A stretch of DNA of 64,000 bases, taken from positions 1 to 64,000 of the forward strand of contig JACMRL010000003.1 of NCBI GenBank assembly GCA_014376435.1, in the 5' to 3' direction. The notes under the pieces were generated by a model that searched no databases, was not told the DNA's origin, and saw only the letters and a list, made by a program, of their open reading frames with translations. Made by a program: the position numbers and the translations under genes. Each line of letters opens with the position of its first letter. Positions within the stretch are counted from its first letter, which is position 1. Below are positions 25,222-29,550 of the stretch, piece after piece. This DNA comes from Bdellovibrio sp. (lineage in GTDB: Bacteria; Bdellovibrionota; Bdellovibrionia; Bdellovibrionales; Bdellovibrionaceae).

Positions 25222-27165
25222 TTATCTTTTTCCCTGAATAACGGGAATTATAATGATAAATTCTGTTCCGACACCTTTTTCGGAACGAACTTGAATTTCG
25301 CCGCCGTGGTTTTGAATAATTCCGTACGAGATACTTAAGCCTAAACCTGTGCCTTGCCCGACCCCTTTAGTGGTAAAAAATGGTTCAAAAATTTTTTCTA
25401 AAACTGCCGCATCCATTCCCATTCCACTATCTTGAATTGAAACCTGCACTCGACCCGGCTGGCTCGAAGATGCCTTGATCGGTAATGTCGAAATCCAAAT
25501 TTGGCCGGATCCCTGGATCGCCTGAACCGCGTTTGAAAGAATATTCATGAAAACTTGGTTAATTTGCGAGGCATAGCATAAGACTTTAGGAACCGGCTCA
25601 TACTGACGGTGAACTTGAATACGATTTGTAATTTCGCCCTTTAATAAATTCAGGGTGGTATCAAGTGCATCGCGTAAATCAATTTCTTTTAATTGGGCTT
25701 CTTCTAATCTTGAAAAGTTACGTAGTCCTAAAACAATATCGCGAGTACGCTGGGCTCCGTCTTGGCATGACTTGATTAATTGCGGTAAATCTTTTTTAAT
25801 AAACTCATAATCAACTTGGCCTTTAATTTCTTGTAACTTTTCTGGATTTTTTTCAACTGTGTCAATAATTTGAAATAGTTTTTGCGAGTAATCTTTTAAA
25901 TGACTGGTGTTGCTGTAAATAAAACCGATCGGATTATTTAATTCGTGCGCTACGCCCGCTACAAGTTGACCTAAACTAGTCATCTTAGCCGAATGCACTA
26001 ATTTTGTTTGCGCCTCTTTTAAATCGTTGTTGGCCATTTCTAATTCTTTGATTTTCTTTTTTAAATCATTTCTAGCCTGAAAAATTTTTAGACTCATCTC
26101 ATTAAAAGCCGAAGTCAGTACGCCAATTTCAGTTTTATTTTTAACGGGCAACTGCACTAAACTTTCGGTTTTATCAAATGATCTTAAACCGCCAATAAGT
26201 TCGTTGATTGGCCGTAAAAGCCAGTTTGCACTAATTAATACAGTGACTAATAAAAACAGAACGACCACGCTAATAACTGATAAAAACGCGATATTTACAT
26301 TTTTAAGTACCGACTGCGAATCTTTTTTAGTAACACCCAGGGCAATGTAGAAATGCGATTTATCCCAAGTAATTGGGTAAAGAATAAATCCATAAGGCTC
26401 TGAGTCCGTAGATATTTCAAAAAATTTATCCGCATCAGCGCCACGTAAAACTTTGTCGATAAAACCTTTAGAAAGATATTTGAACTGGGGCAAAGTTGAA
26501 GCAATAATTTGGCCGGAATCCCTGACTAAAAAAGCCTCTAGCTTCAACTTTGCTTTGATGCGAGTTAAAAAATAATCTTTCAAATCAATGATTTGCTCAA
26601 CGTAGCCGATAATTTTTCCCGAAGACGAAACTACTTTTGAAAAAAGAATCAGCGATATTTTGTTTGATTCAATATAATCAACTAAGCCAAGCTCAGATTT
26701 AGTTTTTAAATGACTTAAGTACTTGTCATTTAATAAAATCTTTTCAGCATTAGGACTAAACGAGCGAACATTATTTTTTTCGTCTTTGAAAACAGTCGAT
26801 AACAAGTGACCTTCACGGTCGTAGAGCGATAGCGAAGATGCAACGCTAGCCTTTATCCACTCGCTAGATAAATCTTGAATTGATTTAATGTCACCCGTTG
26901 TTAAATTATACAGTAAGTGAGGATTTTTGACTAAGCTATCGCGGCTTTGCATCAAGTGCGTGTAATAATCAGAAATCATTACTTCAATTTCACGCCCATT
27001 ACCGCGTAAACGCTCTGACAATTCATTATCAATCGCTTTTTCAAATTTAAAAACTGAGTACCAAGCCACGAAGGCTAACGGTAGAACTGAAAAAATAATA
27101 AACCATACAATTAAAATTGATCTAAGTGAGCGATGTTGAGGTACGTGACGTTTTTTATCACTCAC
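25222..27165 (-). CDS. Sensor histidine kinase (NtrB-like, HAMP)
   Basis: 647 residues. TM1 near 17-40 and TM2 near 295-320 ([20 protein letters not shown]) enclose an extracytoplasmic Cache-type sensor. After a HAMP linker and coiled coil, the HisKA box is [20 protein letters not shown] with the phosphoacceptor His. The ATPase has the N box ([15 protein letters not shown]), G1 (DSGMGMD) and G2 ([12 protein letters not shown]). No response regulator adjoins it. The gene overlaps the upstream gene by eight bases, tying the kinase to that membrane protein and mreB. Confidence 0.93.
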
Positions 27166-28495
27166 TTTGTCTAACCTCGATGATGAACCGCTTAATACCC
27201 GCAGGCACTAAACGCGGATGATTTTCAAATTCGATGCGGTATTGGCCGAACTTTGCTAAAAATTCATTAACCGAATCGACATTATCTTGCGGTAATGTGA
27301 AATGATAATATCCCATTGATTCTGTTCTTTTCCAGCCCAGCTCAACTTCCCCGGCCTTTTTTCCACCCATGCTAACAATTTTTTCTAAAACTTTTGGCGT
27401 AACTGCGTCCAAATCTGTCACCACTAAAACGCCGCGATAAAGTCCACCTTGCTTTTTAGCTTCTGTAGAAGACACGGGGGCCTGGGGTGGTTTGGTCGCC
27501 GGCTTTACTTCAGTAACTGCCGACACTGGTTTTGGGTTTTCTTTCGGAGTAATCAAGCGGTTAGCTTTTTGTTTTGCTGCGGACTGAATCGGCAATTCAT
27601 TCAGGTTCATTGATGATTTATCAGCCCCAGGCACCGTTGGCGACAGCTTCGTAACTTCTAACAAAGTGACCGCTTCGCGCTTGGCTGATTCGGACATATT
27701 TTCAATCCAGCGCGGACGAATGAAAATAATCACTAATAAAATAATAGAAATCGTTGAAACAGAAATTGGTTTTTTGTATTCGTTGATCTTTTTAAGATTT
27801 TTAAACTGTGAAGGCGTTTTTGATTCAACCACTGGTTGAATGACTGCGGGCTTGGGTATTTCGATTTCAAAACTAGCATGATCAGATACTAAATTTTTTA
27901 TTTGTTGAATAATAATTTGATAAACATGCTCAGAAGATTGCAGAACTGGAAATTTTTTTAATCCAATCTTAACTTTTTCGATGTCGTCTTCAGATAAATG
28001 CCCTAATGAGTAATCAATTAAATTTTCGTTCGTAAAAAGATAAGAAACTGTTTTGTCGCTATTTTTTTTAAATTGAAATTCATAATTGGCCTTAACCTCA
28101 GGCGCCTGCTGCACAACTTTTTTAAATGTTTGGTGAAACAAAAAACGTGTTTTATCGGCGGTTATCTTAAACGCTTTAGCAATCTCTTCAAATTTCATAT
28201 CGAATATCAAAATCCCAATAAAAATTAACTGCTGAATTTTTTGTGTTTTTTTATAAATCAAACGCCATTCTGTAATTGTTTTATTTTCAAAAACATGAAA
28301 AGCCAAAGTTGAATTGACCGCCGGAATTTTTTCGCAGATCTGCGCGATTTTTTGTAAAAGGTGACCAACATCATTTGTACGAATAGCTTTTTCAGATTGG
28401 GATACAATCGCTTGATAAACATCAAATGCTTGCGTTGAATTTGGGTATAGCAAATGAGTCGCTAGCCAAACGCGCGCTTCTACGGAAATAAACAT
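27158..28495 (-). CDS. Membrane protein with sigma-factor-like N-terminus
   Basis: 445 residues, not assigned to a named family. Residues 86-128 (IQQLIFIGILIFDMKFEEIA, then KAFKITADKTRFLFHQTFKK) look like sigma region 4 of ECF factors. Residues 159-197 (LIDYSLGHLSEDDIEKVKIG) look like the helical part of anti-sigma factors, without zinc ligands. A single helix follows near 244-262, then a proline-rich linker and a C-terminal alpha/beta domain (GVLVVTDLDAVTPKVLEKIV) on the far side of the membrane. It lies 11 bases after mreB and overlaps the kinase gene. A fused sigma/anti-sigma-like regulator is my inference. Confidence 0.7.
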   Translation of the reverse strand: MFISVEARVWLATHLLYPNSTQAFDVYQAIVSQSEKAIRTNDVGHLLQKIAQICEKIPAVNSTLAFHVFENKTITEWRLIYKKTQKIQQLIFIGILIFDMKFEEIAKAFKITADKTRFLFHQTFKKVVQQAPEVKANYEFQFKKNSDKTVSYLFTNENLIDYSLGHLSEDDIEKVKIGLKKFPVLQSSEHVYQIIIQQIKNLVSDHASFEIEIPKPAVIQPVVESKTPSQFKNLKKINEYKKPISVSTISIILLVIIFIRPRWIENMSESAKREAVTLLEVTKLSPTVPGADKSSMNLNELPIQSAAKQKANRLITPKENPKPVSAVTEVKPATKPPQAPVSSTEAKKQGGLYRGVLVVTDLDAVTPKVLEKIVSMGGKKAGEVELGWKRTESMGYYHFTLPQDNVDSVNEFLAKFGQYRIEFENHPRLVPAGIKRFIIEVRQSE

Positions 28496-28506
28496 ATTAA
28501 ATTATA

Positions 28507-29550
28507 TTAGTCGATTGTCAGCTGGCTGAGAAGATCCAGTTGGTCTAAAACTTTACCTGAGCCCATAACAACGCAAGTTAATGGATCTTCGGCGATTGAA
28601 ACCGGAAGACCAGTTCTTTCGCGAAGCAAAACATCTAGGTTTGCTAGTAGTGCTCCGCCACCTGTTAAAACGATTCCGTTATCAACAATATCGGAAGCTA
28701 ACTCCGGTGGAGTTTTCTCTAAAGCTGTCCGAACTGCATCCACGATTTCAGATAAAGGATCCATCAAGGCGTCGTTGATTTGCGTACTAGTGATCTCGAT
28801 GGTTTTTGGGGCGCCGGCAACTAGATCTCGACCTTTTACTTCCATCGTTCTTTCAACTTCAAAAGGATACGCATTTCCGATTTTAAGCTTAATTGATTCA
28901 GCCGTTCTTTCACCGATCAATAAGTTAAATTGACGACGAACGTAGTTTACGATCGCTTCGTCAAACTTATCTCCGGCTACTTTAATTGATTTACAATAAA
29001 CAATACCACCCAAAGAAATAACGGCTACGCCCGTGGTACCGCCACCCATATCAACAACCATATTTCCTGAAGGTTCGGTAATAGGAAGCCCGGCACCGAT
29101 CGCGGCGGCCATTGGTTCTTCGATTAAGTGAACTTCGCGGGCACCTGCGGATTGAGCCGCTTCTTTTACTGCGCGTTTTTCGACTTGGGTAATGCCGAAC
29201 GGAACGCAGATAATAATGCGTGGACGTACTAACGATTTTTTCTCGCCCATGGCTTTTTGAATAAAATATTTTAGCATCGAAGAAGTGACTTCAAAGTCAG
29301 CGATTACACCGTCTTTGATTGGACGAATCGCTACAATACTACCTGGCGTACGACCCAACATTTCTTTGGCTTCTTTACCAACCGCTAAAACGCGATTCTG
29401 CATTCCACGATAATTTTTTTGAACCGCTACTACTGAGGGTTCATCAAGAATAATTCCACGGCCCTTGACATAGACAAGCGTATTCGCAGTCCCTAAATCA
29501 ATAGCGATGTCATTTGAAAAATAATCGGTAAACTTATCAAAGAAAGACAT
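28507..29550 (-). CDS. mreB: Rod shape-determining protein MreB
   Basis: 347 residues with the actin-fold signatures: phosphate 1 loop [19 protein letters not shown], phosphate 2 [19 protein letters not shown] and the adenosine-motif region [16 protein letters not shown]. It polymerises under the inner membrane and directs lateral wall synthesis. The usual mreC/mreD partners do not follow; instead come the sigma-like membrane protein and a sensor kinase. In Bdellovibrio-type bacteria more than one mreB exists, so this may be one of two paralogues. Confidence 0.96.

Follow-up and report, generated by a model that had tools for sequence, protein, structure and literature searches.

What is the protein encoded between the cell-shape gene mreB and a sensor histidine kinase gene in a Bdellovibrio sp. 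genome (assembly GCA_014376435.1), and does it couple cell shape to gene expression? The locus lies on contig JACMRL010000003.1, of which positions 1 to 64,000 of the forward strand were analysed; this whole stretch is called the window, and all gene positions are coordinates of these 64,000 nt. The open reading frame (ORF) calls agree with a first-pass annotation of the DNA on a minus-strand cluster of three genes, with 11 bases between the mreB stop and the gene for a 445-residue protein, here P445, which in turn overlaps the kinase gene by 8 bases (Table 1). By Pfam, mreB and the kinase are ordinary members of their families, and the sensor part of the kinase gave a sub-threshold dCache_3 match. 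P445 had been read as a possible all-in-one membrane sigma/anti-sigma switch through which cell shape could be coupled to gene expression. Comparison with relatives indicated, with near certainty, that P445 descends by fusion from a sigma/anti-sigma-like gene pair linked to mreB, and we give an even chance to the reading that it is now a tethered, repurposed sigma module and not a working promoter selector.

The ancestry of P445 was traced in samples of 14 genomes of the genus, 66 of the family, 140 of the order Bdellovibrionales and 368 of the phylum, all counts depending on genome completeness. The usual layout in the order is mreB, a ~155-aa gene resembling sigma factors of the extracytoplasmic function (ECF) type, a ~330-aa membrane anti-sigma-like gene, and a kinase gene. 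Homologues of P445 were found in 60 of the 66 family genomes, and outside the genus they mostly covered residues from ~140 on, because the sigma-like and anti-sigma-like parts are separate genes there. The N-terminal part of P445 aligned with the ~155-aa family (hhalign, E 2e-6, and E 9.3e-7 with 27 sequences), and its anti-sigma-like part with the split ~330-aa family at E 2.2e-47 in a profile comparison. Across the order, mreB was detected in 134 of the 140 genomes at E ≤ 1e-60, the kinase in 117 at E ≤ 1e-50, and the anti-sigma-like profile in 114; phylum-wide, this last profile matched 123 of the 368 genomes, the same 114 Bdellovibrionales included. The sigma-like profile matched 108 order genomes, and 106 when two genomes of the fused genus (G003 and G010) with weak matches away from mreB were dropped; further weak off-locus matches came from G017 and G025.

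The separate sigma-like gene lay directly behind mreB on the same strand in 103 of 103 checkable genomes, which represent ten families; the other three of the 106 (G087, G108 and G123) are interrupted by contig breaks, and in none of the 106 was the gene located elsewhere. Ninety-nine of the 103 links spanned at most 124 bases, and the distances of 244–343 bases in G109, G113, G124 and G125 arise because the match there is confined to the later part of the profile. Further, a kinase match followed the anti-sigma-like gene at all 41 loci examined. This survey of mreB neighbourhoods therefore bears out that the three-gene order is conserved in relatives, together with the association of the fusion protein with mreB and the kinase. 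Conservation of mreB is so high that its surroundings could simply be carried along, in which case the order would be historical only and P445, MreB and the kinase would be co-expressed without working together; however, the linkage in every checkable genome of ten families, and an mreB–kinase pairing that persists after loss of the middle gene (see below), make this improbable. One record titled Streptomyces griseus (CALQIT020000032.1) also carries a Bdellovibrionales mreB cluster and is very probably mistitled.

Taken by themselves, single-sequence searches would support the sigma reading of P445 only weakly: no Pfam model reached its cut-off, the sole sigma-like library match was NCBIfam SigJ at residues 81–138 (E 0.047), and a profile search against solved structures returned chance-level matches. 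It is the relatives that make the reading firm. Profile-profile comparison (hhalign) against ten ECF-type sigmas of the window's and related genomes, with 60 column-shuffled decoys, gave E 3.8e-7 for region 4 of P445 (residues 73–140) and E 3e-6 for that of the split sigma-like profile, and in either case none of the 60 decoys scored as well. Sigma70_r4_2 was matched by 11 of the 15 split members scanned (best 6.3e-8) and Pfam Sigma70_r4 by one of ten fused members (E 2.5e-4), and a profile search of the split protein against solved structures gave weak helix-turn-helix (HTH) or sigma matches at E 0.08–0.8 among five. As judged from sequence, the homology of region 4 is secure in both the fused and the split forms. 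For region 2, the sequence alignments were not significant, with decoys as good in 12 of 60 (fused) and 15 of 60 (split) cases, and Sigma70_r2 matched neither P445 nor any of the 15 split members searched, nor anything encoded around mreB in the seven genomes whose locus was scanned. The assignment of a whole ECF fold thus rests on structure prediction.

The AlphaFold model of P445 (predicted local distance difference test, pLDDT, 79; predicted template modelling score, pTM, 0.50) begins with helices at the N-terminus and stays helical in the middle; a membrane helix follows, then a stretch of low confidence at ~274–346, and a confident alpha/beta domain forms the C-terminus. Residues 1–128 were modelled in blocks of pLDDT 85–97, except one block at 76, and helices were predicted at 86–96, 102–109 and 113–128, the interval in which the first-pass annotation had placed sigma4-like helices. 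The five top Foldseek matches of P445 were ECF sigmas (SigW, SigG1 and CnrH; prob 0.99–1.00), led by SigW of the SigW–RsiW complex (prob 1.00, E 1.1e-2, TM score on the target 0.56). The split protein of B. bacteriovorus kdesi (L098) was modelled with seven helices at pLDDT 89 and pTM 0.83. Nearly all of the best 50 of its 284 matches in the PDB (E ≤ 10) were sigma factors or sigma-like domains, the leading ones being ECF sigmas bound to anti-sigmas; the best was Bartonella RpoE (E 1.9e-3, TM 0.67), and no match in this PDB search reached E ≤ 1e-3. An ECF-type two-domain sigma2–sigma4 fold is therefore predicted, at modest E-values, for both the split protein and P445.

A weak indication of anti-sigma identity for the following segment comes from zf-HC2 matches in 4 of 15 split ~330-aa members at E ≤ 0.1, the best of which (3.2e-4) was just under the cut-off; the Pfam search gave no zf-HC2 match on P445 itself, and the Hx3Cx2C motif was found in none of the 15 split proteins and in none of the 37 sequences of a wider alignment that includes fused ones. 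The split anti-sigma-like gene adjoins the ECF-like sigma gene, and the membrane helix was checked on P445, where model and hydropathy agree on the single helix reported earlier. Hence the proposed anti-sigma-like segment, its fusion with a sigma-like part, the membrane helix and the outer domain stood up in the separate genes of relatives and in the predicted fold, and P445 combines a sigma-like part, an anti-sigma-like part and a membrane helix in one chain, as in one-component fused types. In the C-terminal domain, the letters KAGxVxxGW are invariant across 37 aligned sequences. An assignment of this domain to DUF4349 was rejected, as only 1 of 15 members matched (E 0.05). Two anti-sigma-like homologues (279 aa in G043 and 275 aa in G057) are matched by the profile over its first part only and, from their sequences, seem to lack the C-terminal outer domain.

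Within the genus, a P445 homologue was present as a single ORF between mreB and the kinase gene in 10 of the 14 genomes, that of the window included, although contig ends truncate the kinase in two of these. Three genomes (G006, G009 and G012) have no P445 and carry mreB directly before the kinase, and the incomplete G011 was not judged. In another family, mreB also directly precedes a kinase (G071–G073). A kinase tree of 62 rows, which left out one batch of loci, duplicate kinases and kinases of ≤450 aa (including L021 and L193), placed the genus in one clade of fused and lost loci with 100/100 support, inside which the three losses group. This comparison shows that the sigma-like gene and its anti-sigma-like neighbour became a single ORF in the genus ancestor. 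A second fusion, L058 (G044, 524 aa), lies far from this clade and joins L063 at 100/100; both are long branches, and the tree program warns about such joins. We therefore count two fusions, though the relatives of the second are less certain. Two more candidates, L057 and L146, were discarded since their apparent fusion reflects over-extended ORF starts, a separate sigma frame being present there (G052 and G084).

Fused and split proteins differ in the last helix of the region-4 HTH, the helix that reads DNA. The 63 distinct split proteins of the loci examined were compared with ten fused rows (L017–L025 and L058) plus the window protein, a set of 63 and 11 that does not amount to 74 independent events. 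The Gly-Thr and Arg residues were all present in 54 of the 63 split proteins, and the Arg in 62, L063 being the exception. In contrast, no T or R occurred at those positions in any of the ten fused rows scanned, and the window protein has D, K and L, by eye alignment, where split proteins have G, T and R; the GT...R signature is thus absent in 11 of 11 fused proteins, none of which has an intact recognition helix of this type. The degenerate but unfused L063, the closest neighbour of L058 in the tree, suggests that the signature can be lost before fusion occurs. With the DNA-reading helix rewritten and the predicted fold of the sigma part kept, P445 most likely does not select promoters as a free sigma factor.

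These observations bear on a rival reading, in which P445 is a working one-component membrane sigma whose sigma part is released by regulated proteolysis upon an outside signal and drives its own regulon, as described for IutY and proposed for ECF52. The general order of parts is the same as in the available portions of PMC8999054 and PMC5826349, the sigma fold is predicted to be intact, and the sigma part is constrained (see below). However, the missing region-4 residues in all fused proteins, against an Arg kept in 62 of 63 split ones, and the absence of a Sigma70_r2 match in all the proteins and loci scanned speak against a released sigma, which we regard as unlikely, if a serious alternative.

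Whether the sigma part is still maintained was assessed from its conservation. The ten P445-type ORFs are intact, and the fused set has invariant residues of its own, e.g., W10, H14-L15-L16, P18, Q22-A23 and D25. In four of six chosen pairs with finite synonymous divergence (dS), the ratio of non-synonymous to synonymous divergence (dN/dS) of the sigma part was 0.15, 0.08, 0.17 and 0.09, and across the six pairs its identity was 49–79%, above that of the C-terminal domain in three. The sigma part therefore looks to be under purifying selection, as far as codon comparison can tell. Together with the lost helix signature, this retained constraint favours a tethered module that selects no promoters over an IutY-style released sigma.

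Several observations weigh against this reading of P445. The absence of P445 from 3 of the 14 genus genomes implies that it is dispensable. The rewritten helix has remained basic and might recognise DNA of another kind, and an A-x-D is retained in the fused sigma part where the region-2.2 motif would fall, in an alignment that is itself not significant (equalled by 12 of 60 decoys). The dN/dS values are rough, as dS is near saturation, and saturated in two of the six pairs. When 45 fused and 435 split pairs were binned by kinase identity, the fused sigma part was less alike than the split one, at 0.35 vs. 0.42 (kinase identity 0.55–0.6), 0.33 vs. 0.45 (0.6–0.7) and 0.46 vs. 0.79 (0.7–0.9), and the C-terminal domain was likewise less alike in fused pairs at kinase identity ≥0.55 (0.49 vs. 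0.61 at 0.6–0.7). In the window's genus the fused protein thus evolves faster relative to the kinase, which relaxed constraint would also produce. The overall result is mixed, as in the bins 0.3–0.45 and 0.5–0.55 the fused sigma part was more alike than the split one, the low bins being distorted by two fused kinases cut by contig ends (L021 and L025). The faster divergence at higher kinase identities, the lost signature, and the loss of the whole gene in three genomes nested in the fused clade would also fit a sigma part that is a decaying relic heading for loss; but the low dN/dS, the identity levels, the ten intact ORFs and the fused set's own invariant residues speak against decay, and a relic is in our view very unlikely.

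A promoter scan gave 10 sites, fewer than the shuffled mean of 14.3, so that on its own the scan carries no weight; the promoter-like site before mreB is of the sigma-70 type, and an upstream box specific to mreB1, AAATATCnGnATTGAC, overlaps its −35 element (Table 1). The exact box was found once in each of seven of the eight genomes searched, every time before mreB1, and the eighth (G015) had only one-mismatch copies elsewhere; a reversed control at ≤1 mismatch gave four matches in all, three of them in G009. With ≤2 mismatches, upstream regions contained the box in 10/11 fused, 3/6 lost, 10/20 split same-family and 1/28 other-family cases, compared with 0–0.1 per group expected from shuffling. 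The three P445-less genus genomes keep the promoter block, and this promoter therefore does not seem to need P445. Autoregulation through an ECF-type promoter before mreB is accordingly unsupported, the sigma-70-type site also tells against a released sigma, and the idea that P445 actively couples transcription to shape as an all-in-one switch is not supported, the helix signature being gone from every fused protein and the mreB promoter being retained where P445 is not.

As a tethered module, P445 would most likely stay in the inner membrane and serve in signalling or docking. The outer C-terminal domain would sense the state of the envelope or wall, and the cytoplasmic sigma/anti-sigma pair would signal to a putative partner, most plausibly the kinase of the adjoining gene or MreB. 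The unfused pair elsewhere in the order, in which the helix signature is mostly intact, is more probably a conventional sigma/anti-sigma switch for the envelope that is expressed together with MreB1, which is the simplest view of it in most of the order. In PhyR, a protein with a receiver domain, a sigma fold is used without acting as a sigma factor, and P445 could similarly be a sigma mimic that occupies or titrates its own or another anti-sigma, with the kinase upstream. The sigma-like domains of PhyR are among the Foldseek matches, the DNA-reading signature is gone, and a kinase match follows the anti-sigma-like gene at all loci examined. However, the Pfam search revealed no receiver domain in P445 or the split proteins scanned, and no second anti-sigma turned up, although no search was aimed at one; mimicry is thus a doubtful candidate, with a small probability. 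A wider picture joins the tethered P445 with the unfused pairs: an order-wide and so far unrecognised cell-shape module of Bdellovibrionales, mreB1–sigma–antisigma–kinase, would read the envelope state via a dedicated sigma switch encoded alongside the actin homologue, which in the window's genus would have been turned from a promoter selector into a single, non-transcriptional membrane part of the elongation machinery. We propose this only tentatively and think it less probable than not.

Fused sigma/anti-sigma membrane proteins are known from IutY (ECF243, Pseudomonas putida), ECF48, ECF52 and ECF53, and as far as the portions of PMC8999054 at hand describe them, they resemble P445 in joining an ECF sigma part and a membrane anti-sigma part in one polypeptide. 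ECF52, reported from Actinobacteria only, also has an outer domain (PMC5826349, in part). Unlike these fused proteins, P445 has neither the region-4 GT...R signature nor a zinc motif, its outer domain is different, and it is linked to mreB and a kinase; the zinc motif is dispensable in class I anti-sigmas (ASDI; PMC7406223, in part). The earlier statement that no described system has this layout thus holds for the linkage to mreB, for which no case was found, but not for the fused architecture. SigW–RsiW and CnrH–CnrY are among the best fold matches of both models, and their type shares the split layout of a sigma-like gene followed by a membrane anti-sigma-like gene; the mreB-linked proteins differ from them in a region 2 that is undetectable by sequence, in the missing Hx3Cx2C motif, and in the fusion in the window's genus. 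RsgI is the anti-sigma of sigma-I. In Bacillus subtilis, mreBH is a sigma-I target gene, so that a sigma factor feeds MreB-type elongation there (PMC7478892, in part), whereas the pair described here sits inside the mreB cluster itself. Within the same bacterial group, the Group IV sigmas Bd0881 and Bd0743 are the named RpoE-like proteins of HD100, and the mreB-linked protein is homologous in region 4 to ECF-type sigmas of these genomes. Bd0881 and Bd0743 lack a downstream anti-sigma gene (PMC3464611, 2012, in part), and the mreB-linked pair does not appear in the available parts of that paper. Among the matches listed in the open-licence literature, no paper described the mreB/sigma-like/anti-sigma-like/kinase cluster or the altered helix, and none was found under the tags bd0211–bd0214.

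Both of the mreB genes of B. bacteriovorus are reported to be essential, and why the species needs two is an open question in the available part of PMC6985089. With a sigma/anti-sigma-like pair and a kinase encoded behind one copy, there is a direct way into the question of how this predator may link the growth of its filaments to the state of the envelope. The RpoE-like sigmas of this species are described as lacking a downstream anti-sigma gene (PMC3464611, in part), and the mreB-linked pair seems to be an exception that has not been catalogued. Fused sigma/anti-sigma membrane proteins being known already, what appears new here is the mreB/kinase linkage and the altered helix. The fused form offers a natural example in which the DNA-reading signature of a sigma factor has disappeared from a protein that also contains its likely inhibitor.

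Table 1. Position of the mreB cluster, of the parts of P445 and of the upstream elements in the window.
Feature	Coordinates	Strand	Remarks
mreB (MreB1 type), 347 aa	28507–29550	−	PF06723, E 1.1e-151; first gene of the cluster
P445, sigma-like/anti-sigma-like/membrane fusion, 445 aa	27158–28495	−	ATG start; from ORF list and homologues
Histidine kinase, 647 aa	25222–27165	−	GTG start; HAMP, HisKA and HATPase_c above cut-off
Predicted ECF-sigma-like fold, P445 residues 1–128	28112–28495	−	Region 4 supported by profile and fold, region-2-like part only by fold
Last helix of region-4 HTH, residues 113–128	28112–28159	−	Gly-Thr...Arg signature absent
Anti-sigma-like helical domain, residues 148–206	27878–28054	−	Homologous to split membrane proteins; without Hx3Cx2C zinc motif
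Single membrane helix, residues 241–260	27716–27775	−	AlphaFold helix 241–259; Kyte-Doolittle peak 2.08 at 241–261
C-terminal alpha/beta domain, residues 349–445	27161–27451	−	AlphaFold pLDDT 90–97; presumed outside the membrane
Sigma-70-type promoter-like site, TTGACT-17-TAGAAT	29590–29618	−	Before mreB; in place before mreB in genus and family
mreB1-specific upstream box, AAATATCnGnATTGAC	29614–29629	−	Overlaps −35

As for the surroundings of the cluster, mreC and mreD had been called missing. By ORFs and Pfam matches of the neighbours, neither adjoins the window's mreB, which is thus not in an mreBCD operon layout, but the genome does have mreC on another contig (C24, E 1.9e-40). A second mreB of this genome, on contig C35 (6661–7704 of locus L026), also lies away from mreC and is followed by genes for methionyl-tRNA synthetase, a SpoU methylase and a TrmO-type protein. 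An Rfam scan of 24000–31000 gave no match at gathering scores. On the minus strand, 24604–25182 encodes a small protein with one membrane segment (by eye) that is found 3′ of the kinase in many relatives; its true start is probably an internal ATG, since several homologues align from residue 13. Next come genes for an LpoB-like peptidoglycan-synthase activator (23493–24185, minus strand; PF13036, E 1.2e-42) and for a protein with sub-threshold TPR matches (22217–23479, minus strand), and their occurrence near the cluster in many relatives hints at a wider cell-wall neighbourhood. Further away, a strong sigma factor region 2 match (7513–7725, minus strand; PF04542, E 2.2e-25) lies in a 613-codon frame that probably encodes the housekeeping sigma.

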